Origin: Saccharothrix obliqua
GTDB taxonomy: Bacteria > Actinomycetota > Actinomycetes > Mycobacteriales > Pseudonocardiaceae
DNA: 64,000 nucleotides
Reading direction: 5' to 3'
Assembly (NCBI RefSeq): GCF_019375475.1
Contig: NZ_JAHXGQ010000005.1
Location: 434,001 to 498,000 of the forward strand
The notes under the pieces were generated by a model. The model did not search any database. It worked only from the letters and a program-made list of their open reading frames with translations, and was not told where the DNA came from. Both the position numbers and the translations under genes were made by a program. Shown here in pieces: positions 1,917-37,542 of this stretch. Numbering within the stretch: position 1 is the stretch's first letter; each line of letters begins with the position of its first letter.

Positions 1917-2341
1917 GTTTCTTCCGCGTGGTGCGGGTCTCGGCCGCTGATGCTGAGCTGCTGCGGGCTGCGGTTCTGGAGTTCCGCGGGGTTGATGTTC
2001 CCGTTGCCGGGTTTCTCGGTGATCCCGCCTCGTTGGCGTTCGTGGCTGTTGATGGTGATGCGGTGGTTGGTTGGGTTTGGGGGGTTCGGCAGCGGCATGT
2101 TGTCGGGTACACCCAGGTTCAGCTGTACGAGATAGGTGTGTTGCCCTCGGTTCGGCGGCGTGGGGTGGGGCGTGCGCTGCTGGAGGCGTTCGTGGAAGTG
2201 GTGCGTGCGGAGGGGCACGCGAAGATGTGGCTGTTCACCAGTGAGGACAACGTGGCCGCGATCTCGTTGTACGAGGCGGCTGGTGGGCGGCCGTCTTTGC
2301 ACGACGACGCCGGGTACTGGTGGAGTTTTTCGTCGGGGTGA
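1913..2341 (+). CDS. GNAT-family N-acetyltransferase
   Basis: This 142-residue protein has the GNAT acetyl-CoA binding motif A (IGVLPSVRRRGVGRALLEAF, about residues 74-93) and motif B (NVAAISLYEAAGG). The arrangement, with an ending of LHDDAGYWWSF, resembles the AAC(3)-I branch of aminoglycoside acetyltransferases, but the substrate cannot be deduced. A TTG start overlaps the dapC stop (TTGA), so it probably belongs to the fdxC-dapC transcript. The first repeat element of this window begins at its stop codon. Confidence 0.85.
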   Translation: MSFFRVVRVSAADAELLRAAVLEFRGVDVPVAGFLGDPASLAFVAVDGDAVVGWVWGVRQRHVVGYTQVQLYEIGVLPSVRRRGVGRALLEAFVEVVRAEGHAKMWLFTSEDNVAAISLYEAAGGRPSLHDDAGYWWSFSSG

Positions 2342-2525
2342 AAAGCGTCCTCGCCGGACTGGCAGACCGCCAAGGATGACGATCAAGAGCGGGCTGCGTG
2401 TCATCCCCGTATGGCCTGGTCAAGACAACCACACTCGTTCCCTGAGCGCAAACGAAAAGCGTGTTTGCGCTCAGGGAACGAGCGCGGTTCGCTGGCGCGC
2501 AGGCCATACGGGGATGACACGCAGC
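2341..2525 (+). repeat. Dispersed structured element, copy 1
   Basis: The outer arms 2393-2418 and 2500-2525 are perfect 26-bp inverted repeats starting GCTGCGTGTCATCCCC. Inside them are a 15-nt left linker (GTCAAGACAACCAC plus one base) and a 17-nt right linker (CGCGGTTCGCTGGCGCG). A 20-bp hairpin (2434-2453 with 2463-2482) closes on the loop GAAAAGCGT. A leader from AAAAGCG at 2341 to 2392 is a diverged version of the leader of the other two copies. The copy fills the gap between the convergent GNAT and dapD genes. The following bases 2526-2556 are T-rich. Confidence 0.95.
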
Positions 2526-2556
2526 TAGCTGGGTTATTGGTGTTGTGTTTTGTGTT

Positions 2557-3522
2557 TTAGTCGTTTGAGTGCAGTGCGGCGTTCAGTTCTACGCCGGTGC
2601 CCTTGCGGGGCTTTACCTTTACCTGGCCGGTGGTCGAGTCCCGGATGAACAGCAGGTTCGGTACGCCGGACAGGGTTGCGGCCTTCACCGCGGTGCCGTC
2701 TTCCGCTGTGACCTTGGTGCCGGCGGTGATGTAGAGGCCGGCTTCCACGACGGTGTCGTCGCCCAAGGAAATTCCCACGCCGCCGTTCGCCCCGATCAGG
2801 CAGCGTTCGCCGATTTCGATGACCTGCTTGCCGCCGCCGGACAGGGTGCCCATCACGGACGCGCCGCCGCCGATGTCGGAGCCGTCGCCCACCACCACGC
2901 CTGCCGAGATCCGGCCTTCCACCATGGAAGCGCCGAGGGTGCCCGCGTTGAAGTTCACGAAGCCCTCGTGCATGACGGTGGTGCCGGGGGAGAGGTGGGC
3001 GCCCAGGCGGACGCGGTCGGCGTCCGCGATGCGCACGCCGGAGGGCACCACGTAGTCGACCATGCGCGGGAACTTGTCGACGCCGTAGACGGTCACCGGA
3101 CCCCTGGCGCGGAGCTTGGTGCGGGTTTCCTCGAAGTCCTCCACGGCGCACGGGCCGTGGTTGGTCCACACGACGTTGTTCAGCAGGCCGAAGACGCCGT
3201 CGAGGTTCTGGCCGTGCGGGCGGACCAGGCGGGCGGACAGCAGGTGCAGGCGCAGGTAGACGTCGTAGGTGTCGGCGGGTGCTTCGGCGAGCGTGATGCC
3301 CACCCGGACACCGACCACCTCGACGTCCCGGTCCTCGTCCACGCCCAGTTGCCTGGCCGCGGCCTCGCCCAGTTCGGCCGCCACCTCCGCGGCGGACAGG
3401 CGGGTGGTGCCGAGGGGCGCCTCGCCCAGTCGCGGGGACGGGAACCAGGTGTCCAGTACGGCCCCGGAGGGGGTCACGGTGGCCAGGCCGACGCCGTGGG
3501 CAGTGGTGTTCGCGGTGCTCAC
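2557..3522 (-). CDS. dapD: Tetrahydrodipicolinate N-succinyltransferase
   Basis: DapD transfers succinyl from succinyl-CoA to tetrahydrodipicolinate in the succinylase branch of lysine/DAP synthesis. The 321-residue protein has the actinobacterial long form. An N-terminal alpha/beta region is followed by a left-handed beta helix of hexapeptide repeats (for example [20 protein letters not shown], residues about 215-300). The [19 protein letters not shown] segment lies in the catalytic region. The length is close to the 317 residues of the M. tuberculosis enzyme. The GTG start at 3522 is supported by a TACCGT box eight bases upstream on the minus strand (leaderless type). It is divergent from dapE with only 25 bases between the starts. 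Confidence 0.93.
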
Positions 3523-3530
3523 GGGTGTCA

Positions 3531-3540
3531 ACGGTAACGT
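3531..3540. promoter_or_regulatory. Shared bidirectional -10 box for dapD and dapE
   Basis: The ten bases ACGGTAACGT contain TAACGT on the plus strand (3535-3540, seven bases before the dapE GTG). They also contain TACCGT on the minus strand (3536-3531, eight bases before the dapD GTG). The two boxes overlap by two bases. Both spacings equal those of the other leaderless starts in the window. The whole gap between the two start codons is 25 bases, so there is no room for separate 5' leaders. Confidence 0.6.
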
Positions 3541-3547
3541 GCCGGGG

Positions 3548-4618
3548 GTGGCTGACACCTTGGACCTCGCTGCCGACCCCGTCTCCCTGACCGCCGCCCT
3601 CGTGGACGTGCCCAGCGTTTCCGGCGACGAAGCCCGGCTCGCGGACCTCGTGGAGGCGTCGCTGCGGGAGCAGACGTCGCTGGAGGTCGTGCGCTCGGGC
3701 AACGCGGTGCTGGCGCGCACGACGCTCGGGCTGCCCAAGCGGGTCGTGCTGGCGGGTCACCTGGACACGGTGCCGGTCAACGACAACCTCCCCTCGCGGC
3801 TCGACGGGGACGTGCTGCACGGGCTCGGCACGTGCGACATGAAGGGCGGCGACGCGGTGATGCTCAGCCTGGCCGCCGGTGTCGGCCGCCGGCCGCGGTA
3901 CGACCTGACCTTCGTGTTCTACGACTGCGAAGAGGTCGAGGCCACGCGCAACGGGCTCGGGCGCATCGAGCGGGAGCTGCGGGAGTGGCTGGACGGCGAC
4001 CTCGCGATCGTGTGCGAGCCGTCGAACGCCATCGTCGAGGCGGGCTGCCAGGGCACGATGCGGGTCGAGGTGCGGACCTCCGGGGTCCGCGCGCACACCG
4101 CGCGGGGGTGGATGGGCAGCAACGCCATCCACGCGCTCGGCGAGGCGTTGCGGCGGCTGGAGGCGTACGAGGCGCGGACCGTCGAGATCGACGGGTGCCT
4201 CTACCGGGAGGGCCTCCAGGCCGTGCACGTGTCGGGTGGCGTCGCGGGGAACGTGGTGCCGGACGCGGCGGTGCTGACCGTCAACCACCGGTTCGCGCCC
4301 GACCGGTCCGTGGCCGACGCCGAGGCGCACCTGCGGGAGGTGTTCGCCGGCTACGAGGTCGTGGTGACGGACTCGGTGGGCGGCGCGTTGCCCGGGTTGG
4401 GCACCGAGGCGGCGCAGGAGCTGGTGCGCGCGGCCGGTGGGACGCCCGTGGCCAAGCTCGGGTGGACCGACGTCGCCCGGTTCGCCGCGCTGGGCGTGCC
4501 GGCGGTGAACTTCGGCCCCGGCGACCCGACGTTGGCGCACACCCGGCAGGAGCACGTGCCGGTGAACCAGGTCCGACGGTGCCGGGAAGTGTTGGCGAGC
4601 TTCCTCGACCTCGGGTGA
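3548..4618 (+). CDS. dapE: Succinyl-diaminopimelate desuccinylase
   Basis: DapE is a zinc-dependent M20-family amidohydrolase that releases LL-diaminopimelate from its N-succinyl form. The 356-residue protein shows the metal motifs GHLDTVP (about residue 76) and [10 protein letters not shown] (about 97), then YDCEEVE with the catalytic and metal-binding acidic residues (about 124), and EPSN. The dimerisation lid follows ([18 protein letters not shown]). The end HTRQEHVP supplies the last zinc histidine. The start chosen is GTG 3548, preceded by TAACGT and seven bases; GTG 3539 is a possible alternative. The M. tuberculosis enzyme is about the same length. Confidence 0.92.
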
Positions 4619-4639
4619 TCGCCGGATAGACTCGCGCCA

Positions 4640-5410
4640 ATGAGTGAGCACAACGGCGTCGACGAGCACCCCAGGGAGAAGCAGCGCGGGCCGGTCGTCC
4701 TGCGTCGCGGGCGCCGCGATGAGCTGACCACCACCGACCAGCGGCTGCTGGACTCGCGCGGACCGACGGACTGGGTGCACACCGACCCGTGGCGGGTGCT
4801 GCGCATCCAGGCCGAGTTCGTGGAGGGCTTCGGCGCGCTGGCCGAGCTGCCGAGCGCGGTCACCGTGTTCGGCTCGGCGCGCACCGGGCGCGACCACCCC
4901 GAGTACCAGGTGGGCCGCGCGCTGGGCGGCGCGCTGGCCGAAGCCGGTTTCGCGGTGATCACCGGTGGCGGGCCCGGCGCGATGGAGGCCGTCAACCGGG
5001 GCTGCTCCGAGGCGGGCGGGTTCTCCGTCGGGCTGGGCATCGAGCTGCCGTTCGAGCAGGGCCTGAACCCGTGGGTCGACCTCGGCGTGAACTTCCGCTA
5101 CTTCTTCGTGCGCAAGACCATGTTCATCAAGTATTCGCAGGCGTTCATCTGCCTGCCGGGCGGGTTCGGCACCCTGGACGAGCTGTTCGAGGCGTTGACC
5201 CTGGTGCAGACGAAGAAGGTCACCAAGTTCCCGGTGGTCCTGTTCGGCCGCTCGTACTGGCAGGGCCTGTACGACTGGGTCCGCGACTCGGTGCTGGGCA
5301 GCGGCAAGGTGGGGGACAAGGACCTCGCCCTGCTGCACCTGACCGACGACGTGGACGACGCGGTGCGGGTCGTGCGCGAGGCGCACCAGGCATGGGCGGA
5401 CGCGCATTGA
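4640..5410 (+). CDS. LOG-family (TIGR00730) nucleotide hydrolase, long form
   Basis: This is a 256-residue Rossmann-like protein of the LOG / lysine decarboxylase-like family. Characterised members cleave cytokinin riboside monophosphates or related nucleotide monophosphates to the base. The signatures ITGGGPGAMEAVNRG (about residues 111-125) and LPGGFGTLDELFE (about 172-184) carry the catalytic Arg/Glu set typical of the family. About 60 N-terminal residues precede the domain and are rich in charges. The ATG start is preceded by TAGACT and seven bases (leaderless). A second LOG gene overlaps its end. The natural substrate is not known. Confidence 0.88.
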   Translation: MSEHNGVDEHPREKQRGPVVLRRGRRDELTTTDQRLLDSRGPTDWVHTDPWRVLRIQAEFVEGFGALAELPSAVTVFGSARTGRDHPEYQVGRALGGALAEAGFAVITGGGPGAMEAVNRGCSEAGGFSVGLGIELPFEQGLNPWVDLGVNFRYFFVRKTMFIKYSQAFICLPGGFGTLDELFEALTLVQTKKVTKFPVVLFGRSYWQGLYDWVRDSVLGSGKVGDKDLALLHLTDDVDDAVRVVREAHQAWADAH

Positions 5411-5946
5411 CCACGGTGACGGTGTACTGCGGCTCGCTGCGGACGGTCCCGGAGCCGTACCTGGAGCTGGCCGCCGAGGTGGGCGCCGAGATCGCGCGGC
5501 GCGGCTGGTCGCTGGCCTGGGGCGGCGGGCGCAGGTCGATGATGGGCGCGGTGTCGCAGGCCGCCCGTGCCGGTGGCGCGCGCACCATCGGCGTCATCCC
5601 GCGCTCCCTGGTCGACCGCGAGTGGGCCGACCACGACGCCGACGAACTGCTGGTGGTGGACACCATGCGGGACCGCAAGGCGTTGATGGAGGCGCACGGC
5701 GACGCGTTCCTGGCGATGCCGGGCGGTATCGGCACGTGCGAGGAGCTGTTCGAGGTGTGGACGGCGCGGGTGCTGGCGCTGCACGACAAACCCGTGGTGG
5801 TGCTGGACGTCGACGACCACTACCGGGGCCTCGTGGCGTGGCTGGGTGAACTGGTGGAACGCGGCTTCGTGTCGCGGACCGCGCTGGACTCCCTGGTCGT
5901 GACCGACGACGTGCGGACCGCCCTGGACGCCTGCCAGGCCCCGTGA
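5407..5946 (+). CDS. LOG-family (TIGR00730) nucleotide hydrolase, short form
   Basis: This is a second LOG-family protein of 179 residues with no N-terminal extension. It has GGGRRSMMGAVSQAA near residue 39 and the active-site motif MPGGIGTCEELFEVW near residue 103. This is the size class of M. tuberculosis Rv1205, which lies at the equivalent place in that genome. The TTG start at 5407 overlaps the stop of the long LOG gene (TTGA); GTG 5416 is an alternative. The two neighbours are clearly different in sequence, so this is not a recent duplication. Confidence 0.87.
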   Translation: MTTVTVYCGSLRTVPEPYLELAAEVGAEIARRGWSLAWGGGRRSMMGAVSQAARAGGARTIGVIPRSLVDREWADHDADELLVVDTMRDRKALMEAHGDAFLAMPGGIGTCEELFEVWTARVLALHDKPVVVLDVDDHYRGLVAWLGELVERGFVSRTALDSLVVTDDVRTALDACQAP

Positions 5947-6833
5947 TCGCGGGGCGTGGCACGATGCCGGGTATGCGGTTCGGCGATCGTGAGGTGCCCG
6001 GGGATCGTGCGCTGGTGATGGCGATCGTCAACCGGACGCGGGACTCCTTCTACGACCGGGGCGCGACCTTCGCCGACGACGCCGCGATGGCCGCCGTCGA
6101 CCGGGCGGTGGCCGACGGCGCGGACATCGTGGACATCGGCGGCGTGAAGGCGGGCTCCAAGGGCGAGGTGGTCGACGCCGCCGAGGAGGCACGTCGTGTC
6201 GTGCCGTTCGTCGCGGCCGTGCGTGAGCGCCACCCCGACCTGGTGATCAGCGTCGACACCTGGCGGCACGAGGTGGGGCGCGCGGTGTGCGCCGAGGGCG
6301 CGGACCTGATCAACGACACGTGGGCGGGCGCGGACCCGGAGCTGGCCGAGGTGGCCGCGGAGTTCGGCGTCGGCATCGTGTGCTCCCACACCGGCGGCCT
6401 GCCGCCGCGCACCGACCCGCACCGCGTCCGCTACGAGGACGTGGTGGCCTCCGTCGCGGCGGAACTGGTCGAGCGGGCCGAGCGGGTGGTGGCGCTGGGC
6501 GTGCCGCGGGCCGGCGTGCTGATCGACCCCACGCACGACTTCGGCAAGAACACCTGGCACGGCCTGGAGCTGCTGCGGCGGCTCGACGAGCTGGTCGGCA
6601 CCGGGTGGCCGGTGCTGATGGCGTTGTCCAACAAGGACTTCGTCGGCGAGACCCTGGGCGCGGACCTGGTCGACCGGGTGGACGGCACGCTGGCCGCCAC
6701 CTCCGTGGCCGCCTGGCTGGGCGCGAAGGTGTTCCGGGCGCACCAGGTCCGGCAGACCCGGCACGTGGTGGAGATGGTGGCGGGCATCGCGGGCACCCGA
6801 CCGCCCGCGAAGGTGTTGCGCGCCTTGGCCTAG
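5943..6833 (+). CDS. folP2: Dihydropteroate synthase homologue FolP2
   Basis: This protein has the TIM-barrel pterin-binding fold. Typical elements are MAIVNRTRDSF at the start of the barrel, DIGGVKAG, SVDTWR, NDTWAG, IDPTHDFGKNT and ALSNKDFVGETLG. These variants are those of the FolP2 branch. M. tuberculosis FolP2 (Rv1207) is reported to lack normal dihydropteroate synthase activity, so a folate role is not assured. The GTG at 5943 overlaps the preceding stop (GTGA). ATG codons at 5964 and 5973 are plausible alternatives and give a more usual N-terminus (MRFGDREVPGDRALVM). Its TAG stop shares the bases CTAG with the stop of convergent cydC. Confidence 0.88.
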   Translation: MIAGRGTMPGMRFGDREVPGDRALVMAIVNRTRDSFYDRGATFADDAAMAAVDRAVADGADIVDIGGVKAGSKGEVVDAAEEARRVVPFVAAVRERHPDLVISVDTWRHEVGRAVCAEGADLINDTWAGADPELAEVAAEFGVGIVCSHTGGLPPRTDPHRVRYEDVVASVAAELVERAERVVALGVPRAGVLIDPTHDFGKNTWHGLELLRRLDELVGTGWPVLMALSNKDFVGETLGADLVDRVDGTLAATSVAAWLGAKVFRAHQVRQTRHVVEMVAGIAGTRPPAKVLRALA

Positions 6834-8233
6834 GGGCACTCGGCGGTCCACCGGTCGCGGTAGTGGCCCGGGGTGCGGCTGAGTTCGTCGTGCGTGCCGC
6901 GCTGCGTCACGCGACCTTCCTCGACCACGATGATCTCGTCGAAGTCCCGCAACGGCGCGAGGCGGTGCGTCACCAGCACCACCTGGCCACGCGCGGCGGC
7001 GAGCACGGCTCTCAGGACGCGGTCGCCGTGGCGGGTCGCCAGGCCCTCCACGGGTTCGTCCAGCAGCAGCACCTCCGGGTCGGCGAGCAGCGCTCGGGCC
7101 AGCAGGAGGCGTTGGCGCTCGCCACCGGACAGCTCGGGACCCGCGTCCCACGGCACGTCCAGGTCGGCGACGCGGGCCACCTCGTCCAGCCTCGGCTGCC
7201 CGGCGTCGGGGTCGGCGAGCCGGACGTTGTCCCGCACCGGGCGCCGGAACACGTGCGCGTCGTCCAGCAGCCCCTTGGCGCGGCCCGGGTTGGCCGCGGC
7301 GATCGCGTGCAGCAGGGTGCTCTTGCCCGCGCCGCTGGGACCGACGACGCCGACCCGCCGCGCGGTCGGCAGCAGCAGCGGCGGTGGGGGCTCCGCCGGT
7401 GGTGCCGCCAGCGTTTCCCGGACGCGCGTGACCGAGCCGCGGTGTTCCGCCCACCGCCGCGCGGCGGTGGTGAGCGGCACGAAGACCTCCAGGGCGGCGA
7501 CCGCGCCCAGCACGACGTGTGCCGGTTCGCCGTTCACCAGCAGCAGGACACCCGTGCCGAACTGCACCGCGACGGCCAGGCCGGCGAGGGCCGTCGCGGC
7601 GTGGTCGCGCTCTCGTGCGGCGAGGTCGTCCACCAGGTCGCCCGCCCGGTCCAGCGCGTGGTCCAGCGCGCCGAACGCGGTCAGCTCCACCTCGCCCTCG
7701 CGCAACGCCACCACGTGCTCGGTCAGCTCGGCACGCAGCGGTGCGAGCGCTCGGAGGCGGCGGTTCGCCAAGCCGAACGCGAGTGCGGGGAGCACTACGC
7801 CCGCCAGCAGTGTTCCCGCGAGCAACGGGGCCGGGGCACCGGTCGCGATCAGCACCGTTGTGCCGACCACCGCCGCCACGCCGGCCGGCAGGGCGCAGCG
7901 GAGCACCGCGTCCTGCACGGCGTCCACGTCGGACACCAAGCGCGTCAACGCGTCCCCGCCCCGCAACGGTCTCCGCAGCAGCGCGTCGTACACCTTCCCG
8001 CGCAGCTCCGCCATCGCCCGCAGCACGGCGTCGTGCCCGGTGAGGCGTTCCGCGTAACGCAGGCCGCCCCGTGCCAGGGCGAGCGTCCGCACCGCCACGA
8101 CCGCCACGGTCAACGCCGACATCAGTGGCTGCTCCGCCGCCCGCATCACCAGCCACACGGCGGTGGCCGTCAACCCGACGCCCGCCAACTCCGCCGCCGC
8201 GCCCACCAGCACGGCGGCCGGCAGTCGCCTCAC
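6830..8233 (-). CDS. cydC: CydC-type ABC exporter subunit, compact
   Basis: This is one half of the CydDC heterodimeric exporter needed to assemble cytochrome bd; the family exports cysteine/glutathione or handles haem. The protein is only 467 residues, against about 570 for usual CydC. A membrane domain of five or six hydrophobic segments is followed by an ATPase domain with GPSGAGKST, ELSGGERQRLLLARAL and VLLLDEP. The ATPase lacks the usual first beta strands before the Walker A motif. The Q-loop position reads LLDDAHVF, so the expected glutamine appears replaced. The GTG start overlaps the cydD stop (GTGA). Confidence 0.85.
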   Translation of the reverse strand: MRRLPAAVLVGAAAELAGVGLTATAVWLVMRAAEQPLMSALTVAVVAVRTLALARGGLRYAERLTGHDAVLRAMAELRGKVYDALLRRPLRGGDALTRLVSDVDAVQDAVLRCALPAGVAAVVGTTVLIATGAPAPLLAGTLLAGVVLPALAFGLANRRLRALAPLRAELTEHVVALREGEVELTAFGALDHALDRAGDLVDDLAARERDHAATALAGLAVAVQFGTGVLLLVNGEPAHVVLGAVAALEVFVPLTTAARRWAEHRGSVTRVRETLAAPPAEPPPPLLLPTARRVGVVGPSGAGKSTLLHAIAAANPGRAKGLLDDAHVFRRPVRDNVRLADPDAGQPRLDEVARVADLDVPWDAGPELSGGERQRLLLARALLADPEVLLLDEPVEGLATRHGDRVLRAVLAAARGQVVLVTHRLAPLRDFDEIIVVEEGRVTQRGTHDELSRTPGHYRDRWTAECP

Positions 8234-10555: not shown

Positions 10556-10576
10556 AGCGATTTCCCTTCCGGAGGC

Positions 10577-26604: not shown

Positions 26605-28155
<1,551 letters not shown>

Positions 28156-28200: not shown

Positions 28201-28620
28201 GTGTTCGAAAACATCGGCTGGGTTGAACTGCTTTTGATCATCGTCGCGGGCTTGTTCATCCTCGGCCCGGAACGCCTACCCTCGGCCGCCGCGTGGGTGG
28301 GCAAGACCATGCGCCAGGTCCGCGATTACGCGACCGGCGCCCGCGACCAGCTCAAGCAGGAGATGGGCCCGGAATTCGAGCAGCTCCGGAAACCCCTCGA
28401 GGACCTGCGAGAACTCCGCAACTTCGACCCCAAGCGGGCCATCACCAAGCACCTGTGGGACGACGCGCCGACAACGACCAACGGCCAGAGCAAGCCCAAC
28501 GGCTCCTCCGGACCGCACACGACGGCCCCGCAGCCCGGCCCGACCGGCGCCCGCGAACGGGAACGCGAACGCCCCTTGCAGCAAGGCGAACGCCCCCCGT
28601 ACGACCCGGACGCCACCTGA
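28201..28620 (+). CDS. tatB: Sec-independent translocase subunit TatB
   Basis: TatB is the receptor part of the twin-arginine export machine. The 139-residue protein shows the classical start [20 protein letters not shown] followed by GPERLP, with the conserved Glu in the membrane helix. An amphipathic helix ([23 protein letters not shown]) follows, then a disordered charged tail. The GTG start is 45 bases after htrA, so it is likely co-transcribed. The second copy of the dispersed element lies downstream, before convergent mrp. Confidence 0.93.
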
Positions 28621-28725: not shown

Positions 28726-28915
28726 GCTGCGTGTCATCCCCGTATGGCCTGCGCGCCAGCGAACCGCGCTCGTTCCCAGGGCGCAAACACGCTCTTCGTT
28801 TGCGCCCTGGGAACGAGGGTGGTTGTCTTGACCAGGCCATACGGGGATGACACGCAGCCCTTGATGTCATCCTTGGCGGCCTGCCAAGCGGCGAGCGTCG
28901 CTTTTAATCCCGAGG
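28726..28915 (-). repeat. Dispersed structured element, copy 2 (reverse)
   Basis: This copy is 190 bp and the mirror orientation of copies 1 and 3. The outer arms are 28726-28751 and 28833-28858, identical to those of the other copies. The linkers are identical as well. The inner stem 28769-28788 with 28798-28817 has its own sequence and the loop differs by one base. The leader (28859-28915) matches that of copy 3 at 54 of 57 positions. It lies between convergent tatB and mrp. The adjacent stretch 28621-28725 contains no recognisable gene. Confidence 0.95.
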
Positions 28916-28963
28916 TATCCCCAGCGAGGGACGGCCTCCGCAACGGGCCGGGTCAGCGAGGGC

Positions 28964-30091
28964 TCAGCGCCCAGCCGGCGACACGTTCAACAGCCGCCCC
29001 GCCAACCCCCGGGACCGCACCGACATCTTCGCGGCCACCGAGGTCAGCACCTGCGCGGCAGGCGACTCCGGCTCGGCGAGGACGATCGGCGTCCCGGCGT
29101 CACCCTGCTCCCGCAGGCGCGGGTCCAGCGGCACCTGCCCCAGCAGCGGCACCTCGGCTCCCACGGCCTGCGTCAGCGACGAGGCCACCGCCTCACCGCC
29201 CCCGGACCCGAACACGTCCATCCGCGTCCCGTCCGGCAGCTCCAGCCACGACATGTTCTCGATCACACCGGCGATCCGCTGCCGCGTCTGCATGGCGATG
29301 GACCCGGCGCGCTCGGCGACCTCCGCCGCGGCCTGCTGCGGCGTCGTCACCACCAGGATCTCGGCGTTCGGCACGAGCTGCGCCACCGAGATCGCGACGT
29401 CGCCGGTGCCCGGCGGCAGGTCGAGCAGCAGCACGTCCAGGTCGCCCCAGAACACGTCGGCGAGGAACTGCTGCAACGCCCGGTGCAGCATCGGTCCGCG
29501 CCACACGACCGGGGTGTTGCCGGAGGTGAACATCCCGATCGAGATCAGCTTCACGCCGTGCGACTGCGGCGGCATGATCATCTTCTCGACCTGGGTGGGT
29601 CGGGCCTCGGTGCCCAGCATCCGCGGGATCGAGTGGCCGTAGATGTCGGCGTCGACCACGCCCACCGACAACCCGCGCGCCGCCATCGCGACCGCCAGGT
29701 TGACCGTGACGCTCGACTTGCCGACCCCGCCCTTCCCGGACGCGACGCAGTACACCCGCGTCAGCGAGCCCGGTTGGGCGAACGGGATGACCGGTTCCTC
29801 GACGCCGCCCCGCAGGGACTTCCGCAGCTCCGTGCGCTGGGCGTCGCTCATCACGTCCAGCGCCACGCGGACCGAGGTCACGCCGTCCAGCGCCTGCACG
29901 GCGGAGGTCACGTCCGCGGTGATCTTGTCGCGCATCGGGCAGCCCGCGACGGTCAGGTACACCCCGACGTCCACGACCCCGTCTTCGACCGACACGGACT
30001 TCACCATGCCGAGGTCCGTGATGGGTCGCCGGATCTCCGGGTCCTGCACGGCGGCTAGCGCCTTGTTCACGTCGTCAACGCTCGGGGTCAC
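28964..30091 (-). CDS. mrp: Mrp/ApbC-family iron-sulfur cluster carrier ATPase
   Basis: This is a 375-residue P-loop ATPase thought to carry or insert Fe-S clusters. The N-terminal MIP18 (DUF59) domain covers residues about 1-80. A deviant Walker A SGKGGVGKSSVTVNLA follows, then VDADIYGHSIPRMLG and DVLLLDLPPGTGD. The region after IENMSWLEL has no CxxC pair, as in the M. tuberculosis protein (Rv1229c), unlike many other Mrp proteins. The GTG has AAGG seven bases upstream. It is convergent with tatB and divergent from the MarR gene. Confidence 0.92.
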   Translation of the reverse strand: MTPSVDDVNKALAAVQDPEIRRPITDLGMVKSVSVEDGVVDVGVYLTVAGCPMRDKITADVTSAVQALDGVTSVRVALDVMSDAQRTELRKSLRGGVEEPVIPFAQPGSLTRVYCVASGKGGVGKSSVTVNLAVAMAARGLSVGVVDADIYGHSIPRMLGTEARPTQVEKMIMPPQSHGVKLISIGMFTSGNTPVVWRGPMLHRALQQFLADVFWGDLDVLLLDLPPGTGDVAISVAQLVPNAEILVVTTPQQAAAEVAERAGSIAMQTRQRIAGVIENMSWLELPDGTRMDVFGSGGGEAVASSLTQAVGAEVPLLGQVPLDPRLREQGDAGTPIVLAEPESPAAQVLTSVAAKMSVRSRGLAGRLLNVSPAGR

Positions 30092-30276
30092 GGGATCGCC
30101 TTCTTCGGGGGTGGGCCACCCATGCTACTTCCGGGGGGCTCGGGGTCAGGGTCGGGAGCACGAGGACGGAGAAGAGGAGCTGGGCCGGAGGGCGGGCGAG
30201 AGCTGCCAAGAGATCCCCGCACGCAACGTCGGACCTGCGCGCAGCCGGTTGCGTGCTTTCCGTAACATTGCTACCC

Positions 30277-30750: not shown

Positions 30751-30784
30751 CCGCCGACCCCGCCGACCCCGCCGACCCGCCGAC

Positions 30785-31294
30785 TCACGACGACACGTCG
30801 TCCCAACGCGCGTCGTCCTTCGCCGCCTTGCGCCGCTGCTCGCGGAACACCCGGTCCAACTCGCCGCGCAGGAAGTCCCGCGTGGCGACCTCGCCGAGCG
30901 CGATCCGCAGCGCGGCCAGCTCCCGCGCCAGGTACTCGGTGTCCGCCTTGGTCTGCGCGGCACGCGCCCGGTCCTCCTCCAGCGACACCCGGTCCCGGTC
31001 GTCCTGCCGGTTCTGGGCGAGCAGGATCAGCGGCGCGGCGTACGCGGCCTGCGTGGAGAACGCCAGGTTGAGCAGGATGAACGGGTACGGGTCCCACTGG
31101 AGCGACACCGCCGCCAGGTTCAGCGTGATCCACACGACCACGATGAGCGTCTGCCAGAACAGGAACTTCCCGGTGCCGAGGAACCGGGCCAGCCGCTCGG
31201 AGAAGCGCCCGAACGCCTCCGGGTCGAGCGAGAACCGGAACCGGCCGGGTGGGCGCGGCTGGTCGAGCCGGCGGCGCGGCAGCAGCTCAGGCAT
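30785..31294 (-). CDS. DUF1003 membrane protein
   Basis: This is a 169-residue protein with two membrane helices (FLFWQTLIVVVWITLNL and PFILLNLAFSTQAAYAAPLILLAQNRQ, about residues 44-92). A charged coiled-coil tail follows (DRVSLEEDRARAAQTKADTEYLARELAALR). This is the DUF1003 pattern, common in actinobacteria next to MgtE-like cytoplasmic proteins. Its start overlaps the end of that upstream gene by eight bases, so the two are one operon, as in M. tuberculosis. The function is unknown; a link to divalent cations is inferred only from the neighbour. Confidence 0.88.
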   Translation of the reverse strand: MPELLPRRRLDQPRPPGRFRFSLDPEAFGRFSERLARFLGTGKFLFWQTLIVVVWITLNLAAVSLQWDPYPFILLNLAFSTQAAYAAPLILLAQNRQDDRDRVSLEEDRARAAQTKADTEYLARELAALRIALGEVATRDFLRGELDRVFREQRRKAAKDDARWDDVSS

Positions 31295-32537: not shown

Positions 32538-32585
32538 GCTGAAGAGGCTAACCAAGGTCGGCTCGTGTTGCTCTGGGGAAACGAC

Positions 32586-32646
32586 GTCGGAGAAGGCGGG
32601 GTCGGGAGGAGGCGGGGTCGGAGAAGGCGGGGTCGGGAGGAGGCGA
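32586..32646. repeat. Short G-rich tandem repeat upstream of phzF
   Basis: Two alternating 15-16-base units, GTCGGAGAAGGCGGG and GTCGGGAGGAGGCGGG, are each present twice in a row. They form a 31-base period in the gap between the MgtE-like gene and the phzF-like gene. One strand is purine-rich throughout. No protein is encoded. Confidence 0.85.
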
Positions 32647-32698
32647 TGAGAGGCGAGGAGAAGCGGTGGGAGGCTTTGCTTCGAGCTACTGTCAACGC

Positions 32699-33532
32699 GT
32701 GCTCGACTACGACCTGCTGGACGTGTTCACCGACCAGCTGTTCACCGGGAACCCCCTGGCGGTGGTGCACGGCGCGGGCGACCTGCCCGACACCCGCCTC
32801 CAAGCGGTGGCGAACGAGTTCGGGCTGTCCGAGACGGCGTTCCCCCTGCCGCCGACCCACCCCGACGCCCACTACCGCCTGCGCATCTTCAGCCCGACCG
32901 GCGAACTCCCGTTCGCGGGCCTGCCGAGCATCGGCACGGCGTGGCTGCTCGCGTCCCGCGGCGTGATCCCCAGTGGCGTGGTCGTGCAGCAGACGGCGCG
33001 TGGCCTGCACGAGGTGACCACCACCCCGAACGGCGCGGAGCTGGCGGGCGACACCCCATCCGTCGGCGACTACCTCGACGCCGGACCGCCGGCGAACGCG
33101 CTGGGCCTGTTCCTGTCCGATGTGGATGGTCACGCCGGCGTCGCGGGCGCGGGGGTGGACTTCACGTTCCTCCCGGTGAAGGAGGACGCGGTGGCACGCG
33201 CCCACCCGCGGCAGGACCTGGCCGGGCACGTGCCGGGGCGGGGGTTGGTGCCGGTGCACTTCGCCGGCGGTGTCGCGCACGTGCGGATGTTCCGGGTGAG
33301 CGGGGGAGAGGACCCGGCCACCGGGTCGGCCGCGCTCGCGCTCGGAGTGTTCCTGGTGGACCGGGGGTTGCTCCCGCCGGAGGGCGAGCACCGGTTCTCG
33401 GTGCGGCAGGGTGTCGAGGTGGGTCGTCCGTCCACTCTGGAGTGCTCGGTGACGGCGGTCGGCGGGGTGGCGACGCACGTGCGGGTCTCGGGTGGGGTGG
33501 TTCCGGTCGCCGAGGGGAAGATGCGGGTCTGA
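32699..33532 (+). CDS. PhzF-family isomerase
   Basis: This is a 277-residue protein of the PhzF / diaminopimelate-epimerase fold. Typical signs are DVFTDQLFTGNPLAVV at the start with NEFGLSETAF (the catalytic Glu), RIFSPTGELPFAGLPSIGTAWLL, and the C-terminal domain motif MFRVSGGEDPATGSAALALG. Some members isomerise trans-2,3-dihydro-3-hydroxyanthranilate in phenazine synthesis, but most, including this orphan, have unknown substrates. The GTG is preceded by TACTGT and six bases. No phenazine genes are nearby. Confidence 0.88.
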   Translation: MLDYDLLDVFTDQLFTGNPLAVVHGAGDLPDTRLQAVANEFGLSETAFPLPPTHPDAHYRLRIFSPTGELPFAGLPSIGTAWLLASRGVIPSGVVVQQTARGLHEVTTTPNGAELAGDTPSVGDYLDAGPPANALGLFLSDVDGHAGVAGAGVDFTFLPVKEDAVARAHPRQDLAGHVPGRGLVPVHFAGGVAHVRMFRVSGGEDPATGSAALALGVFLVDRGLLPPEGEHRFSVRQGVEVGRPSTLECSVTAVGGVATHVRVSGGVVPVAEGKMRV

Positions 33533-33563
33533 TCAGATGCCGGAGATGCGGGTCTGATCAGAT
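33520..33563. repeat. Duplicated stop-codon palindrome between convergent genes
   Basis: The 19 bases GATGCGGGTCTGATCAGAT occur at 33520-33538 and again at 33545-33563. Each copy contains the palindrome TGATCA. The first provides the TGA stop of the phzF-like gene. The second provides, on the minus strand, the stop of the kinase gene. The two genes thus end 25 bases apart in identical sequence. Confidence 0.85.
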
Positions 33564-34415
33564 CCGGACCTGTGGCCGAAGCTCCGCCGACACCCATGCG
33601 CAGAACTCGGCGAGTTCTTCCTCCCCGCTGGAAAGGCCCCACAACCACGTGTCCACCGCCCGGTAGAACGTCCACGCGACCGCGCGCCCCGCGTCCAACT
33701 CGCCCACGTCGCACAACACCGAGATCCGGTCCCGCAGCCCGCGAACCCCGTCGATCTCACGGGCCCGGTTCCACAACAGCGGGATCAACGAGAACTCGCG
33801 GTCGCCGGACACCGGTTTCGGGTCGATCATCAACCACGGCTCCCGCTCCCCGCGCAGCACGTTCGCGTAGTGCAGGTCCTCGTTGACGAGCGTGGTGCCG
33901 GCGGTGGCCGCGAGCGCCTGCCCGACCTCCGTCGCGAGCCGCGTCAAGCGTTCCGGGACGGGGCCGCCCTCCGCCACCAGGTCGTCCACCTCGACGCGCC
34001 GGAACTCCGGCCCCGCGGGCGTCCGCAGCCGCCGCAACAACCCGCCGGCGACGGACAACGCCTCCTCCAGCGGCACGTCCAGCAGCGACCACCCGTGGTC
34101 CAACCGCTCCAGCAGCAGCGCGCCGTGCTCGTCGTCGTGGTCGAGCAGTCGCACCACGCCGCGGCCGTCCCACGCCCGCAGCGCCGCCGGCTCCTGCCGC
34201 GTCTCCTCGTCCAGCCAGGTCAGCTTGAGCACCGCCGGGTGGCCGTCGGCCTGCCGCACCGGGAGCACCACGGCCACGTAGCCGTGCATGAGCGCGCCGT
34301 CCGGGGTGAGGTTCCAGCGTGCGCAGAAGCGGGTGGCCAATGCGGGGAGCGTTGCTCGCCAGGCCAGTGCTGCTTCGCCGAGGTTCTCGGCGAATCCTGG
34401 GGGTACTTCGATCAT
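33558..34415 (-). CDS. APH(6)-like small-molecule kinase
   Basis: This is a 285-residue kinase-fold protein of the aminoglycoside phosphotransferase type, closest in pattern to the streptomycin 6-kinase group. It has VAVVLPVRQADGHPAVLKLTWLDEETRQEPAALRAWDGRGVVRLLDHD in the N-lobe, the catalytic loop NEDLHYANVLRG (about residues 171-182), and the metal motif MIDPKPVSGDREFSL. The ATG has GGAG five bases upstream. Whether it confers resistance or acts on a metabolite cannot be told from sequence. The next upstream gene on the same strand encodes a small unknown protein. Confidence 0.85.
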   Translation of the reverse strand: MIEVPPGFAENLGEAALAWRATLPALATRFCARWNLTPDGALMHGYVAVVLPVRQADGHPAVLKLTWLDEETRQEPAALRAWDGRGVVRLLDHDDEHGALLLERLDHGWSLLDVPLEEALSVAGGLLRRLRTPAGPEFRRVEVDDLVAEGGPVPERLTRLATEVGQALAATAGTTLVNEDLHYANVLRGEREPWLMIDPKPVSGDREFSLIPLLWNRAREIDGVRGLRDRISVLCDVGELDAGRAVAWTFYRAVDTWLWGLSSGEEELAEFCAWVSAELRPQVRI

Positions 34416-34462
34416 TTCTGCTCCGGGTTCAGCTTCGGGTCTGGGGCCGGGAAGCATCGGGG

Positions 34463-34801
34463 TCACGGAACTGGTTCCAACCGGTACACCGACTCCCACC
34501 GGGCCTCCCCGTTGAGCCGCGCCCCCCGAAGAGCCGCAGAAGTGTCCTCGTCGGGAACCACGAGCCGCGCGACGGCGGGAGCGGTCAACAGGTGCGAGTG
34601 GGTCGACGGCGACCGGACGGTGAGCGTGCACGCCACGCCGTCGGACAAGCCCGGCACCTCCTGCTCCCCGCCGCCGACCGCCACGAGCAGCGCGTCGTCC
34701 CGCCACAGCGCCCACACCAGCCGCGCCGGCCCACCACCCGCCGAAACCCACACGGCGGCGGCCTTCCGGAGCGCGTTGTCGAGCAGTCGTGTGATCTCCA
34801 C
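34463..34801 (-). CDS. Hypothetical protein, 112 residues
   Basis: The frame has typical codon use. It encodes a small alpha/beta protein with an N-terminal helix (VEITRLLDNALRKAAAVWVS) and alternating short strands (RLVWALWRDDALLVAVGGG, GVACTLTVRSPSTH). The start is uncertain; GTG 34801 is taken because it begins the conserved-looking helix. It lies 47 bases upstream of the kinase gene on the same strand. I do not recognise the family. Confidence 0.6.
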   Translation of the reverse strand: MEITRLLDNALRKAAAVWVSAGGGPARLVWALWRDDALLVAVGGGEQEVPGLSDGVACTLTVRSPSTHSHLLTAPAVARLVVPDEDTSAALRGARLNGEARWESVYRLEPVP

Positions 34802-34888
34802 CGGTTCAGCCTGCCACGCCCCTGTGAGCCGGGACTCACGGAATAGCGGCCGACCACCCGGCGTGCCACGCTGCCCGGAGCGGATTGT

Positions 34889-34909
34889 TACCGGTCGGTA
34901 CAAGGAGGT
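34889..34909 (+). promoter_or_regulatory. TetR-type operator and ribosome site of the lyase gene
   Basis: TACCG-GT-CGGTA (34889-34900) is a perfect dyad of the kind bound by TetR-family regulators of acyl-CoA genes. It ends two bases before AAGGAGGT (34902-34909), the strongest ribosome site in the window, which is placed five bases before the GTG at 34915. A bound repressor would block transcription or early elongation of the lyase / dehydrogenase operon. Confidence 0.5.
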
Positions 34910-34914
34910 ACCCA

Positions 34915-35874
34915 GTGGTCGACCAGCAGCGTCCCCGTCGCTCGTGCCTGGCCGTGCCCGGTTCCAGTCAGAAGATGATCGACAAGGCCCGCACGCTGCC
35001 CGCGGACCAGGTCTTCCTCGACCTGGAGGACGCCTGCGCCCCACTGGCCAAGCCCGGCGCGCGCAAGACCATCGTCGCCTCGCTCAACGAGGGCGGCTGG
35101 GGTGACCGGACCCGCGTGGTGCGCGTCAACGACTGGACCACCGAGTGGACCTACCGCGACGTCACCGAGGTCGTGGAGGGCGCGGGCGCGAACCTGGACT
35201 GCGTCATGCTGCCCAAGGTCCAGACCGCGGAGCAGGTGCACGCGCTGGACCTGCTGCTCACCCAGATCGAGAAGACCATGGGTTACGAGGTCGGCCGGAT
35301 CGGCATCGAGGCCCAGATCGAGAACGCCCTCGGCCTGACCAACGTCAACGCGATCGCCACCGCGTCCCCGCGCGTGGAGACCATCATCTTCGGGCCGGCC
35401 GACTTCATGGCGTCGATCAACATGAAGTCGCTGGTGGTCGGCGAGCAGCCGCCCGGCTACGACGTCGGCGACGCCTACCACTACATCCTGATGCAGATCC
35501 TGATGGCCGCCCGCGCCCACGGCAAGCAGGCCATCGACGGGCCGTACCTCCAGATCCGCGACGTGGAGGGGTTCCGGCGCGTGGCGGGCCGGTCGGCCGC
35601 GCTGGGCTTCGACGGCAAGTGGGTGCTGCACCCCGGCCAGATCGAGGCGGCGAACGAGGTGTACAGCCCGAAGCAGGAGGACTACGACCACGCCGAGAAC
35701 ATCCTCGACGCGTACGACTACTACACGTCCGAGGCGGGCGGGAAGCGCGGCGCGGTGATGCTCGGTGACGAGATGATCGACGAGGCGTCGCGGAAGATGG
35801 CGCTGGTGATCTCGTCCAAGGGGCGCGCGGCGGGGATGTCGCGGACAGACGTGTGGTCGCCTGCTTCTGAGTGA
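34915..35874 (+). CDS. HpcH/HpaI (CitE-like) CoA-ester lyase, malyl-CoA lyase type
   Basis: This is a 319-residue TIM-barrel enzyme that cleaves or forms a 3-hydroxy- or malyl-type CoA thioester. The motifs are RSCLAVPGSSQKMIDKA, DQVFLDLEDACAP (metal and CoA site), VNDW, MLPKVQT, IEAQIENALGL (metal-binding Glu), FGPADFMASI and GKWVLHPGQI. The length and the last motifs fit L-malyl/beta-methylmalyl-CoA lyases and the long CitE-like enzymes better than citrate lyase beta chains. The acyl-CoA dehydrogenase downstream suggests branched-chain acyl-CoA or leucine/itaconate-type catabolism. The exact substrate is open. Confidence 0.87.
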   Translation: MVDQQRPRRSCLAVPGSSQKMIDKARTLPADQVFLDLEDACAPLAKPGARKTIVASLNEGGWGDRTRVVRVNDWTTEWTYRDVTEVVEGAGANLDCVMLPKVQTAEQVHALDLLLTQIEKTMGYEVGRIGIEAQIENALGLTNVNAIATASPRVETIIFGPADFMASINMKSLVVGEQPPGYDVGDAYHYILMQILMAARAHGKQAIDGPYLQIRDVEGFRRVAGRSAALGFDGKWVLHPGQIEAANEVYSPKQEDYDHAENILDAYDYYTSEAGGKRGAVMLGDEMIDEASRKMALVISSKGRAAGMSRTDVWSPASE

Positions 35875-35960
35875 GGTTGACCCAAGCCCTCCCGAGAACT
35901 GGTGACCCTACGCACAACAGGGTGGCGATCAAGCTGCCCGACCTGTGCATGGTGTTCCCC

Positions 35961-36125
35961 ATGGCCAGACACGCCGCCCCCAAACGCGGGCTCTTCCGCC
36001 GACGACCCGCCGACGACCTGCTTGAGCGCAGCATCCGCACCTGCCCCGACTGCACGGCCGATGTCCACGTGTTCGCCGAGGTGTGCAGGCACTGCGGCGG
36101 GGAGTTGGAGTTGGCGGCCGGCTGA
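35961..36125 (+). CDS. Small zinc-ribbon protein
   Basis: This is a 54-residue basic protein with two Cys pairs, RTCPDC and CRHCGGELEL, forming a zinc ribbon, after a basic N-terminus (MARHAAPKRGLFRRRPADDL). The start is uncertain. ATG 35961 is chosen, ATG 35949 adds four residues, and a GTG at 35871 overlaps the stop of the lyase gene (GTGA). It sits between the lyase and the acyl-CoA dehydrogenase and is probably on the same transcript. The function is unknown. Confidence 0.7.
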   Translation: MARHAAPKRGLFRRRPADDLLERSIRTCPDCTADVHVFAEVCRHCGGELELAAG

Positions 36126-36150
36126 TCGGGCGGGGGAGAGAGGAGCCGAG

Positions 36151-37344
36151 ATGGCCCGCCTGGCCCAGACCGCCGGACTGACCGACGTGCAGGAGGAGAT
36201 CCTCGCCACCGTCCGCACCTTCGTGGACCGCGAGATCATCCCCCACGCCCAAACCCTGGAGCACGGTGACGCGTACCCGGCGGACATCGTCGAGGGGATG
36301 AAGGAGATGGGCCTGTTCGGGCTCACGATCCCCGAGGAGTTCGGCGGGCTCGGCGAGTCGCTGCTGACCTACGCCCTGGTGGTCGAGCAGATCGCCCGCG
36401 GCTGGATGTCGGTCTCCGGCGTGATCAACACTCACTTCATCGTGGCCCACATGCTCAAGCAGCACGGCACGGCGGAGCAGAAGGAGAAGTACCTGCCCCG
36501 CATGGCGACCGGCGAGGTGCGCGGGTCGTTCTCGATGTCCGAGCCGGAGTTGGGCTCGGACGTGGCGGCGATCCGGACCCGCGCGGCGCGCTCCGGCGAT
36601 CTTTACGTGGTGGACGGCCAGAAGATGTGGCTGACCAACGGCGGCACGTCCAACCTGACCGCGGTGCTGGTCCGCACCGACGAGGGCGCGGAGAAGCCGC
36701 ACAAGAACCTCACGGCGTTCCTCGTGGAGAAGCCCGAGGGCTACGGCGAGGTGCTGCCCGGGCTGACCATCCCCGGGAAGATCGACAAGATGGGCTACAA
36801 GGGCGTCGACACCACCGAGATGGTGTTCGACGGGTTCCGGATCGCGGCCGACCAGGTGCTGGGCGGCGTCCCGGGCGAGGGTTTCCGGCACATGATGGAC
36901 GGCGTCGAGGTCGGCCGGGTGAACGTCGCGGCCCGCGCCTGCGGCATCGCGTTGCGGTCGTTCGAGCTGGCCATCGAGTACGCCCAGCAGCGCCGCGCGT
37001 TCGGCAAGCCGATCGTCGAGCACCAGGCCATCGGGTTCAAGCTCGCCGAGATGGCGACGAAGGTCGAGGCCGCCCACCTGATGATGGTCAACGCCGCGCG
37101 GTTGAAGGACTCCGGGGCGCGGAACGACGTCGAGGCCGGGATGGCGAAGCTCATGGCGTCGGAGTTCTGCGCGGAGGTCACGCAGGAGGCGTTCCGCATC
37201 CACGGCGGGTACGGGTACTCCAAGGAGTACGAGATCGAGCGGCTGATGCGGGAGGCGCCGTTCCTCTTGATCGGCGAGGGGACCAGCGAGATCCAGAAGA
37301 CGATCATCAGTCGGGGGTTGTTGCGGGAGTACCGGGCGCGGTGA
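36151..37344 (+). CDS. Acyl-CoA dehydrogenase
   Basis: This is a 397-residue flavoenzyme that oxidises an acyl-CoA at C2-C3. The signatures are SMSEPELGSDVAAIRTRA (FAD/substrate binding, about residues 129-146), WLTNGG, and the C-terminal QAFRIHGGYGYSKEYEIERLMR type sequence with EAPFLLIGEGTSEIQ. The catalytic Glu is most likely the one in GEGTSEIQ (near residue 375), as in short/branched-chain enzymes. The ATG has AGAGAGGAG upstream. Copy 3 of the dispersed element begins nine bases after its stop codon. Confidence 0.92.
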   Translation: MARLAQTAGLTDVQEEILATVRTFVDREIIPHAQTLEHGDAYPADIVEGMKEMGLFGLTIPEEFGGLGESLLTYALVVEQIARGWMSVSGVINTHFIVAHMLKQHGTAEQKEKYLPRMATGEVRGSFSMSEPELGSDVAAIRTRAARSGDLYVVDGQKMWLTNGGTSNLTAVLVRTDEGAEKPHKNLTAFLVEKPEGYGEVLPGLTIPGKIDKMGYKGVDTTEMVFDGFRIAADQVLGGVPGEGFRHMMDGVEVGRVNVAARACGIALRSFELAIEYAQQRRAFGKPIVEHQAIGFKLAEMATKVEAAHLMMVNAARLKDSGARNDVEAGMAKLMASEFCAEVTQEAFRIHGGYGYSKEYEIERLMREAPFLLIGEGTSEIQKTIISRGLLREYRAR

Positions 37345-37352
37345 GTGCGTCC

Positions 37353-37542
37353 CCTCGGGATTAAAAGCGACGCTCGCCGCTTGGCAGGCCGCCAAGGATG
37401 ACGTTGAGGGCTGCGTGTCATCCCCGTATGGCCTGGTCAAGACAACCACCCTTGGTCAGGGAGGGCAAGCGAAAAGCGTGCTTGCCCTCCCTGACCAAGC
37501 GCGGTTCGCTGGCGCGCAGGCCATACGGGGATGACACGCAGC
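37353..37542 (+). repeat. Dispersed structured element, copy 3
   Basis: This copy is 190 bp, the same length as copy 2. The leader is 37353-37409, with small inverted repeats AAGCG/CGCTT and TTGGC/GCCAA. The outer arms are 37410-37435 and 37517-37542, identical to the other copies. The inner stem is 37451-37470 with 37480-37499 around the loop GAAAAGCGT. This stem differs from that of copy 1 at seven and of copy 2 at eight of 20 pairs, and all pairs are kept. It follows the acyl-CoA dehydrogenase stop. Confidence 0.95.

Follow-up and report, generated by a model that had tools for sequence, protein, structure and literature searches.

REPs of enterobacteria and pseudomonads are short hairpins; REP/BIME sequences are associated with a Y1 (RAYT) transposase and bound by DNA gyrase, Pol I or IHF, and a DNA-level role as gyrase or nucleoid-protein sites has been proposed for them. 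HEARO, the omega-RNA of IscB, is a structured element that lies beside an HNH-domain ORF and also exists in solo copies without the ORF. As one paper describes them, REPs are dispersed, palindromic intergenic repeats that are frequent between convergent genes and are specific targets of insertion sequences (PMC1525189); on this description, the element analyzed here is like them in its dispersed palindromic intergenic copies, its preference for convergent ends and its use as an insertion-sequence target. It is different from REP/BIME in having a core that spans about 133 nt and combines two long arms with a four-way junction, in showing no correlation with Y1 transposase, in the repetition of its arm motif in a trailer, and in the coexistence of two motif types (A and B) within the family. 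On balance, if only just, it is probably a dispersed REP/BIME-like family at gene ends, with an unusual architecture.

The window is a stretch of 64,000 nucleotides of the Saccharothrix obliqua genome, and the three copies that a sequence-only reading had noticed in it are all present where they had been placed (Table 1). An inverted-pair scan of the window gave 415 pairs, of which those formed by the repeats are the longest, at 193 and 145 nt; the next measures 58 nt (among the best 25 of the 415 listed). The 26-nt outer arms show no difference among the three copies, and the inner stems (by eye, CTCGTTCCCTGAGCGCAAAC in copy 1, CTCGTTCCCAGGGCGCAAAC in copy 2 and CTTGGTCAGGGAGGGCAAGC in copy 3) differ at 2 (copies 1 and 2), 7 (copies 1 and 3) and 8 (copies 2 and 3) of 20 positions, each difference being paired by the opposite arm, just as had been claimed. 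Copy 1 together with its trailer folds with a z of -14 against dinucleotide shuffles, and the pattern is not a product of chance.

Table 1. Copies of the element and neighboring genes in the window.
Feature	Position	Strand	Remarks
GNAT acetyltransferase gene	1913..2341	+	stop codon adjoins end of copy 1 trailer; convergent with dapD
Copy 1 trailer	2341..2392	-	GTCATCC motif 2374-2380; GGTCTGCC 2361-2368
Copy 1 trailer, 3' part		-	hairpin GTCC-GGCGA-GGAC 2347-2359; UUUU 2341-2344
Copy 1 core, four-way junction	2393..2525	-	model match L001 (1553-1685 -), 141.8 bits
Copy 1 core parts	outer arms 2393-2418 / 2500-2525; inner stem 2434-2453 / 2463-2482; loop 2454-2462	-	
dapD-like gene (tetrahydrodipicolinate N-succinyltransferase)	2557..3738	-	stop codon ~30 nt before start of copy 1
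TatA/B-like gene	28201..28620	+	upstream of copy 2, co-directional
Copy 2 core	28726..28858	+	L025, 141.8 bits
Copy 2 core parts	outer arms 28726-28751 / 28833-28858; inner stem 28769-28788 / 28798-28817; loop 28789-28797	+	
Copy 2 trailer	28859..28905	+	GTCATCC 28866-28872; GGCCTGCC; hairpin AGCGGCGAGCGUCGCU 28887-28902; UUUU 28902-28905
Mrp/NUBPL-type P-loop NTPase gene	28964..30091	-	convergent with copy 2
Acyl-CoA dehydrogenase gene	36151..37344	+	stop adjoins trailer end of copy 3; copy 3 antisense to gene
Copy 3 trailer	37363..37409	-	GTCATCC 37396-37402; GGCCTGCC; hairpin 37366-37381; UUUU 37363-37366
Copy 3 core	37410..37542	-	L026, 144.7 bits
Copy 3 core parts	outer arms 37410-37435 / 37517-37542; inner stem 37451-37470 / 37480-37499; loop 37471-37479	-	
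YflT-domain gene	37719..38255	+	start beyond opposite side of copy 3

The three copies are a small sample, because a search of the genome and its relatives lists 46 places in S. obliqua; matches were found in 22 of 25 Saccharothrix genomes, and the three without cores are G008, G009 and G014. Exact trailers number 48 in the same S. obliqua genome. Wobble pairs are conserved on one strand, the plus strand in the case of copy 2 and the minus strand in copies 1 and 3; in the latter two, this meaningful strand is opposite to the one read before, and what forms a leader on the strand read before is a trailer on the other. On the meaningful strand, the element is a four-way junction composed of a 26-bp outer stem, two mini-hairpins and a long inner stem with the loop ACGCUUUUCG. 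The linkers form the two mini-hairpins across species, with paired changes of their own (helices 2 and 4). The trailer lies 3' of the core, where the outer-arm motif is found again in many copies; a small hairpin comes next and, in most cases, a U-run. A terminal hairpin is recognized in 105 of 108 trailers, and at least four T in a row within 10 nt occur in 74 of these 105 and are absent from 31. Neither trailer was reported by a terminator consensus scan of copies 2 and 3, which needs five T in eight.

The covariation of the element is overwhelming. In an alignment of 34 chosen cores (three odd cores of G018 and near-duplicates being left out), 99.2% of the cells are paired and 33 of 54 pairs are altered on both sides, with 0 of 500 shuffles doing as well on each of the five measures. 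S. obliqua alone (32 distinct rows of 43 copies) gave 99.8% paired cells and two-sided changes in 17 of 54 pairs, and its inner stems contain zero mismatches in 800 cells. The pair census (95 distinct rows from 108 parsed copies) comprises 4950 Watson-Crick, 118 G·U, 6 A·C, 44 other and 12 gap cells or, as distinct genome-column-type cases, 36 G·U, 5 A·C and 17 other. The imperfect pairs are G·U rather than A·C, and therefore one folded strand matters. At 13 sites common to S. obliqua and its sister species (G007), 130 two-sided pair changes were counted, with 19 one-sided G·U steps and 12 broken pairs. The earlier suggestion that the folded form matters is supported by these data. Its companion, that the variable stem is an address tag, fails because one of the 18 stem types carried by the 43 parsed S. 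obliqua copies is shared by 11 sites; moreover, at the sites common to both species the stem differs, with the same neighbors and orientation.

Convergent flanks were found for 22 of 40 S. obliqua copies (those with both flanks called, of 43 parsed; nominal p 6e-7) and for 16 of 30 in G007 (nominal p 3e-5), against a background of 12 convergent pairs among the 62 adjacent gene pairs in the window. Downstream of dapD, the element exists in G000 and G007, and 20 of the 23 other genomes have a different inverted repeat that beats its three shuffles (simple ones, three per genome); in the remaining three (G003, G001 and G018) the score was no better than that of the shuffles. After dapD, the element replaces other hairpins. 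In this position, after a stop codon and at a gene where most relatives carry other inverted repeats, and in the small hairpin and usual U-run of its trailer, the element is like an ordinary 3' hairpin or intrinsic terminator. However, it is far larger, is dispersed in nearly fifty copies, is homogenized within the genome, and often has a U-run of only four.

In G007, 13 of 30 loci have a neighbor on both sides in common with one of the 43 S. obliqua copies (the two closest called genes being considered on each side). All 13 are in the same orientation, counterparts of all three window copies being included, and the A/B motif type is the same in 12. The identity between copies at the same site is nevertheless lower than the mean within the own genome for the same type in 12 of the 13, only one site being nearer to its counterpart than to its genome-mates. 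The copies thus mostly resemble their genome-mates more closely, a sign of concerted evolution. The sequence-only reading had named two outcomes that would count against it, namely arms copied without covariation and randomly decaying copies. The first of these is seen in part, as copying between repeats is clearly present, yet with covariation and not without it; and no randomly decayed full copy was found among the eight lowest-scoring places of G007, of which seven are broken up or truncated by other DNA, the eighth being a divergent but intact form. The insertions in the G007 cores are of two kinds and lie at repeated positions, and the element is an insertion-sequence target.

As gene-end elements of the REP/BIME-like kind, the copies can be read as follows. 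The strand reading outer arm, inner stem, outer arm, trailer and U-run folds in single-stranded form, probably as RNA at a transcript 3' end, and gives a four-way junction of great stability with a small hairpin behind it. Where genes converge, it would take the role of the ordinary 3' hairpin, ending or pausing transcription before the facing gene and protecting the 3' end of the mRNA. For the inner stem, any sequence that makes a perfect stem would do, which leaves the sequence free; it is not an address. Many copies are old and remain in place, copying between repeats homogenizes them within each genome and spreads paired changes, and new paired variants would probably arise by one arm templating the other. 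Several points count against the gene-end RNA reading: the inner stems of S. obliqua are perfect beyond the apparent need of an RNA hairpin, a DNA role (cruciform or gyrase site) would also fit convergent ends, the terminator scan did not pick up the trailers of copies 2 and 3, 31 of the 105 trailers have no run of four T, and tandem contexts show no sense bias, the RNA strand being in the same direction in 8 and antisense in 7 cases in S. obliqua (6 and 5 in G007). Copy 3 is antisense to both neighbors, and its G007 counterpart is oriented likewise.

Among the alternatives, a non-autonomous, MITE-like mobile element moved in trans by a DUF222-HNH protein is unlikely, if the most probable of them; its structured ends would be recognized as folded single strands, and copies would persist between convergent genes, where they do little harm. 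In G150, from a different genus of the family, five of five core pairs (fetched for their spacing of 1.6-1.9 kb; DUF222 and HNH were confirmed by Pfam in the two tested) consist of trailer-bearing copies that face outward on either side of a DUF222 gene, and two further G150 loci are flanked on both sides (L179) or, where the contig ends, on one (L163). The recurrence of the arm motif in the trailer resembles repeated recombinase sites, and inward pairs, often of two motif types, are seen in S. algeriensis and S. tamanrassetensis. In 80 loci among the matches listed, which are skewed to one trailer type and largely to two species, the orientation was ambiguous for 47 merges among 143 merged elements, and only the 35 "+-" pairs among 70 clusters are taken as support. 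However, no DUF222 match was found in S. obliqua, so that such a protein was rejected as a partner still present there, nor in the copy-rich G001, G003, G007, G018, G021 and G023, whereas the core-less G008, G009 and G014 carry 9, 9 and 6 matches; in other genomes of the genus of G150, a core was found by the model at only 2 of 26 fetched DUF222 loci, and the 13 sites shared by S. obliqua and G007, where orientation is also the same, speak against a recent move of the copies concerned. The G150 arrangement is like HEARO/IscB in that the element adjoins an HNH-domain ORF and solo copies exist without one, but the partner is DUF222-HNH, the cores flank the ORF as inverted copies, and no Rfam family matches at threshold. 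It is also like the actinobacterial REP13E12/DUF222-HNH repeats in having a DUF222-HNH gene between copies; S. obliqua differs from these in having no DUF222 match.

It is improbable that the palindromes serve at the DNA level, forming cruciforms or binding gyrase or nucleoid proteins between convergent genes, where positive supercoils collect. The preference for such ends, the insertion-sequence targeting at repeated positions, the nearly perfect Watson-Crick stems and the repeated arm/trailer motif would all suit this role, but a duplex treats G·T and A·C alike, in conflict with the excess of the former in both cells and distinct cases. Of similarly low probability is a by-product, in which arm-to-arm templated correction in replication and gene conversion keep the palindromes perfect and the fold has no function. 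This would explain why 75 of the 130 paired changes at the 13 shared sites are of transversion type, which cannot pass via G·U, and agrees with the lack of mismatched intermediates in the S. obliqua inner stems and with the homogenization within genomes. Such a process, however, should not favor G·U over A·C, nor should it keep the loop, the mini-hairpins, the terminal hairpin, the motif type and the location conserved between diverged species. Least credible is a programmable recombination or processing unit, in which a DUF222-HNH type enzyme (or a replacement factor in copy-rich genomes) would recognize the junction in its folded form, be it RNA or single-stranded DNA, while the trailer's repeat of the 7-nt arm motif would be a guide pairing with the 3' arm, one motif change being copied to all three sites, with later domestication as gene-end hairpins evolving together per genome.

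Other candidates were rejected. Mobility by a Y1 transposase, as in REP, does not fit Y1_Tnp matches in 5 of 25 genomes, with one in S. obliqua and none in the six copy-rich genomes named above. Spread by reverse transcriptase, or the RNA of a group II intron or retroelement, does not fit RVT_1 matches in 10 of 25 genomes (one each in G000, G021 and G023, four in G018), with none in the copy-rich G001, G003 and G007. Plasmid or phage origin was dismissed as copy 1 had no matches, and a gene family tied to the copies inside the genus as the largest flanking-protein family spans 4 loci. Known Rfam families were also rejected: nothing in the window reached the gathering threshold, and the 14 sub-threshold matches around copy 3 were mostly miRNA hairpins (the best, MIR820, with 49.7 bits of 196 needed). 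A title-level literature search gave no paper on a family of this layout.

If the REP/BIME-like reading is true, a large repeat, folded as a four-way junction, serves at many gene ends of an actinobacterial genus and behaves there as REP does in E. coli. The nearly fifty copies, whose stems change in pairs and many of whose sites recur in a sister species, constitute a natural experiment on compensatory change, in which stepwise change via G·U, arm-to-arm templating and copying between repeats can be compared. The G150 loci may also give a lead on what DUF222-HNH genes recognize, the titles found on DUF222 containing nothing on the function of the domain. In G009 and G008, the flanks of DUF222 genes (14 of 20 loci listed) share no palindromes, which again distinguishes the element from REP13E12/DUF222-HNH repeats. 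The DUF222 genes of G009 often adjoin a gene facing them, which is a point of likeness with those repeats.

The folded repeats belong to a family that we read, on a balance tipping barely in its favor, as a REP/BIME-like gene-end family of unusual architecture, whose copies evolve in concert and by paired changes. The three copies in the Saccharothrix obliqua window lie where the sequence-only reading had placed them and are the longest among the 415 inverted pairs found there; their inner stems, compared by eye, differ at 2, 7 and 8 paired positions. Copy 1 and its trailer (the stretch after the outer 3' arm) together have a folding energy of -133.5 kcal/mol (z = -14). A BLASTN search with this copy yielded 80 strand-matches, and a covariance model of the core (the ~133-nt arm-to-arm part) gave 96 in the same genome (8.04-Mb assembly), with at least 46 places among the matches listed. 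A 15-base trailer pattern has 48 exact occurrences in this genome, 45 of them adjoining a listed core, and with one mismatch allowed it gives 66 matches versus 14 for the reversed control. Core-model matches exist in 22 of 25 Saccharothrix genomes and, under stricter filters, in 24 of 150 genomes and 9 of 46 genera of a family-wide sample. No match to copy 1 was found in plasmids and phages, and no Rfam family reached threshold. One exact trailer-pattern match outside the family, in a Deltaproteobacteria MAG (L285), may reflect chance or contamination.

Positions of the folded repeats and loci of a second palindromic family
Feature	Position or loci	Source	Structured strand
Repeat copy 1	2341-2525	window	minus
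Repeat copy 2	28726-28915	window	plus
Repeat copy 3	37353-37542	window	minus
Second palindromic family at dapD 3' end	L204-L208, L210, L211, L213-L216	other Saccharothrix genomes	

From 5' to 3', the element comprises an outer 5' arm, a mini-hairpin (CGC-GCA-GCG type), an inner stem with the loop ACGCUUUUCG, a second mini-hairpin (GUC-UUU-GAC type), the outer 3' arm and the trailer. Because both mini-hairpins (helices 2 and 4) show paired changes across species, the core is taken to be a four-way junction; in the minimum-energy folds of own-genome copies, internal loops often replace the mini-hairpins. The trailer repeats a motif of the 5' arm, a 7-mer being common to both in 54 of 95 copies (shuffled control: mean 25, maximum 36) after 13 of 108 without a recognized GGYCTGCC-type anchor were dropped; inspection by eye shows CATCC ahead of TTGGC in many of the dropped trailers as well. 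Two types of motif, A (CATCC) and B (all others, chiefly TCTCC), occur together in S. obliqua, its sister species, S. algeriensis DSM 44581, S. tamanrassetensis CECT 8640 and one further genome (G003). Of the 108 trailers, 105 have a terminal hairpin, and 74 of these 105 have at least four consecutive T within 10 nt. We regard the fold, its strand, the sites and the homogenization of the family as demonstrated, and infer transcription and termination, as well as the origin of the paired changes. In two loci of one genome (L047 and L058), the inner stem is longer and internally looped.

The proposal that the folded form matters is borne out by paired changes far beyond those of shuffles and by a large excess of G·U over A·C in imperfect cells. 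For an alignment of 34 chosen cores, drawn from eight genomes, pairing holds in 99.2% of cells and 33 of 54 pairs show both-side changes; none of 500 shuffles, which do not model relatedness, reached any of five measures. In the S. obliqua genome alone, where 43 copies give 32 distinct rows, pairing holds in 99.8% of cells, both sides have changed in 17 pairs, and the inner stem has no mismatch in 800 cells. An own-genome alignment including two wrong-strand rows gave 20 pairs changed on both sides, and its further pair types were unexceptional (145/500). Imperfect cells in 95 distinct rows (108 copies) comprise 118 G·U, many of them in a single column where most copies have G·U, 6 A·C, 44 others, mostly at the outer-stem foot, and 12 gaps; counted as distinct genome-column-type cases, G·U outnumbers A·C 36 to 5. 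Since a double-stranded process should yield both equally, the counts favor folding of a single strand in this sense, either as RNA or as single-stranded DNA.

The suggestion that the variable stem is an address tag is not supported: 18 inner-stem types occur among 43 parsed own copies, the commonest at 11 sites. With the nearest two genes called per side, 13 of 30 loci in the sister species have a neighbor gene on each side in common with one of these 43. Orientation matches at all 13, and they include the counterparts of all three window copies. Compared pair by pair, these sites show 569 pairs without change, 130 with changes in both partners (75 of transversion type), 19 separated by a G·U step and 12 broken ones. 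The A/B type agrees at 12 of 13, and at 12 of 13 same-site identity falls short of the mean among own-genome copies of the same type; ten shared sites from several species, compared earlier, agree with this. The repeat places are inherited and the repeat sequences are homogenized within each genome.

Convergent genes flank 22 of the 40 own copies for which both flanks were called (of 43 parsed; 22 of 44 in a second count) and 16 of 30 in the sister species, against 12 of 62 background neighboring pairs in the window. Among own copies between tandem genes, 8 have the RNA strand in the sense direction and 7 (copy 3 included) in antisense, with 6 and 5 in the sister species; this makes it less likely that every copy acts for the gene upstream of it. 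Of 70 clusters in S. algeriensis and S. tamanrassetensis, 35 are inward pairs, and 21 of these pairs lie between convergent genes; the count includes 47 merges of ambiguous orientation and, among its 80 loci, a few from other species. By eye, the spacer between facing trailers at an S. tamanrassetensis locus (L074) appears inverted relative to other pairs in that genome, as if recombination had flipped it. None of the 39 places in the sister species lies within 3.51-6.79 Mb of its 9.36-Mb chromosome.

The element stands at the dapD 3' end in S. obliqua and its sister species. In 20 of the other 23 genomes, an inverted repeat there beats its three shuffles. Some of these repeats are shorter hairpins; about eleven genomes have instead, at the same junction, a second family of long palindromes with ACGTT-type motifs (e.g. 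GAGAGTCCTACGTTC). This replacement suggests that the element takes the place of an ordinary 3' hairpin. At the dapD 3' end of another genome (L209), a divergent hairpin that the core model did not report keeps the CACGCTTTTC loop on different stems and is possibly a remote family member.

The element is also an insertion-sequence target. Other DNA interrupts or cuts seven of the eight weakest sister-species places, and the eighth is a divergent intact form, the arm motif again repeated in its trailer. One inverted-repeat end follows an identical core position in L397-L400, and the open frames tested, from three of these, have rve and HTH_38 domains; a second end sequence joins the outer arm at one position in L397, L398, L403 and L404, and the frames tested, from the last two, are IS4-type (Nterm_IS4, DDE_Tnp_1). 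L397 and L398 are not independent, because they are 99.9% identical over 2248 nt; L401 is also cut by other DNA. REPs are known insertion-sequence targets and frequent between convergent genes (PMC1525189). The Saccharothrix element resembles them in both respects.

In a genome of another genus (G150), cores with outward trailers flank a ~410-aa DUF222 gene, and HNH was confirmed in both DUF222 proteins tested. Six distinct genes there are flanked on both sides, five of them selected for their paired cores, and at least one more on a single side; the genome has 21 DUF222 matches. DUF222-HNH may be the original mobilizer of the element, or a capture. Outside G150 the association is weak: the other genomes of that genus have cores at 2 of 26 DUF222 loci, 12 Saccharothrix DUF222 loci gave no convincing core (best 21 bits), the Saccharothrix genomes richest in cores are without DUF222, and three core-free ones have 9, 9 and 6 matches. 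In one genome (G009; L222-L230), several of nine DUF222 genes adjoin a gene facing them, and at some of these loci the repeated unit hardly exceeds the ORF.
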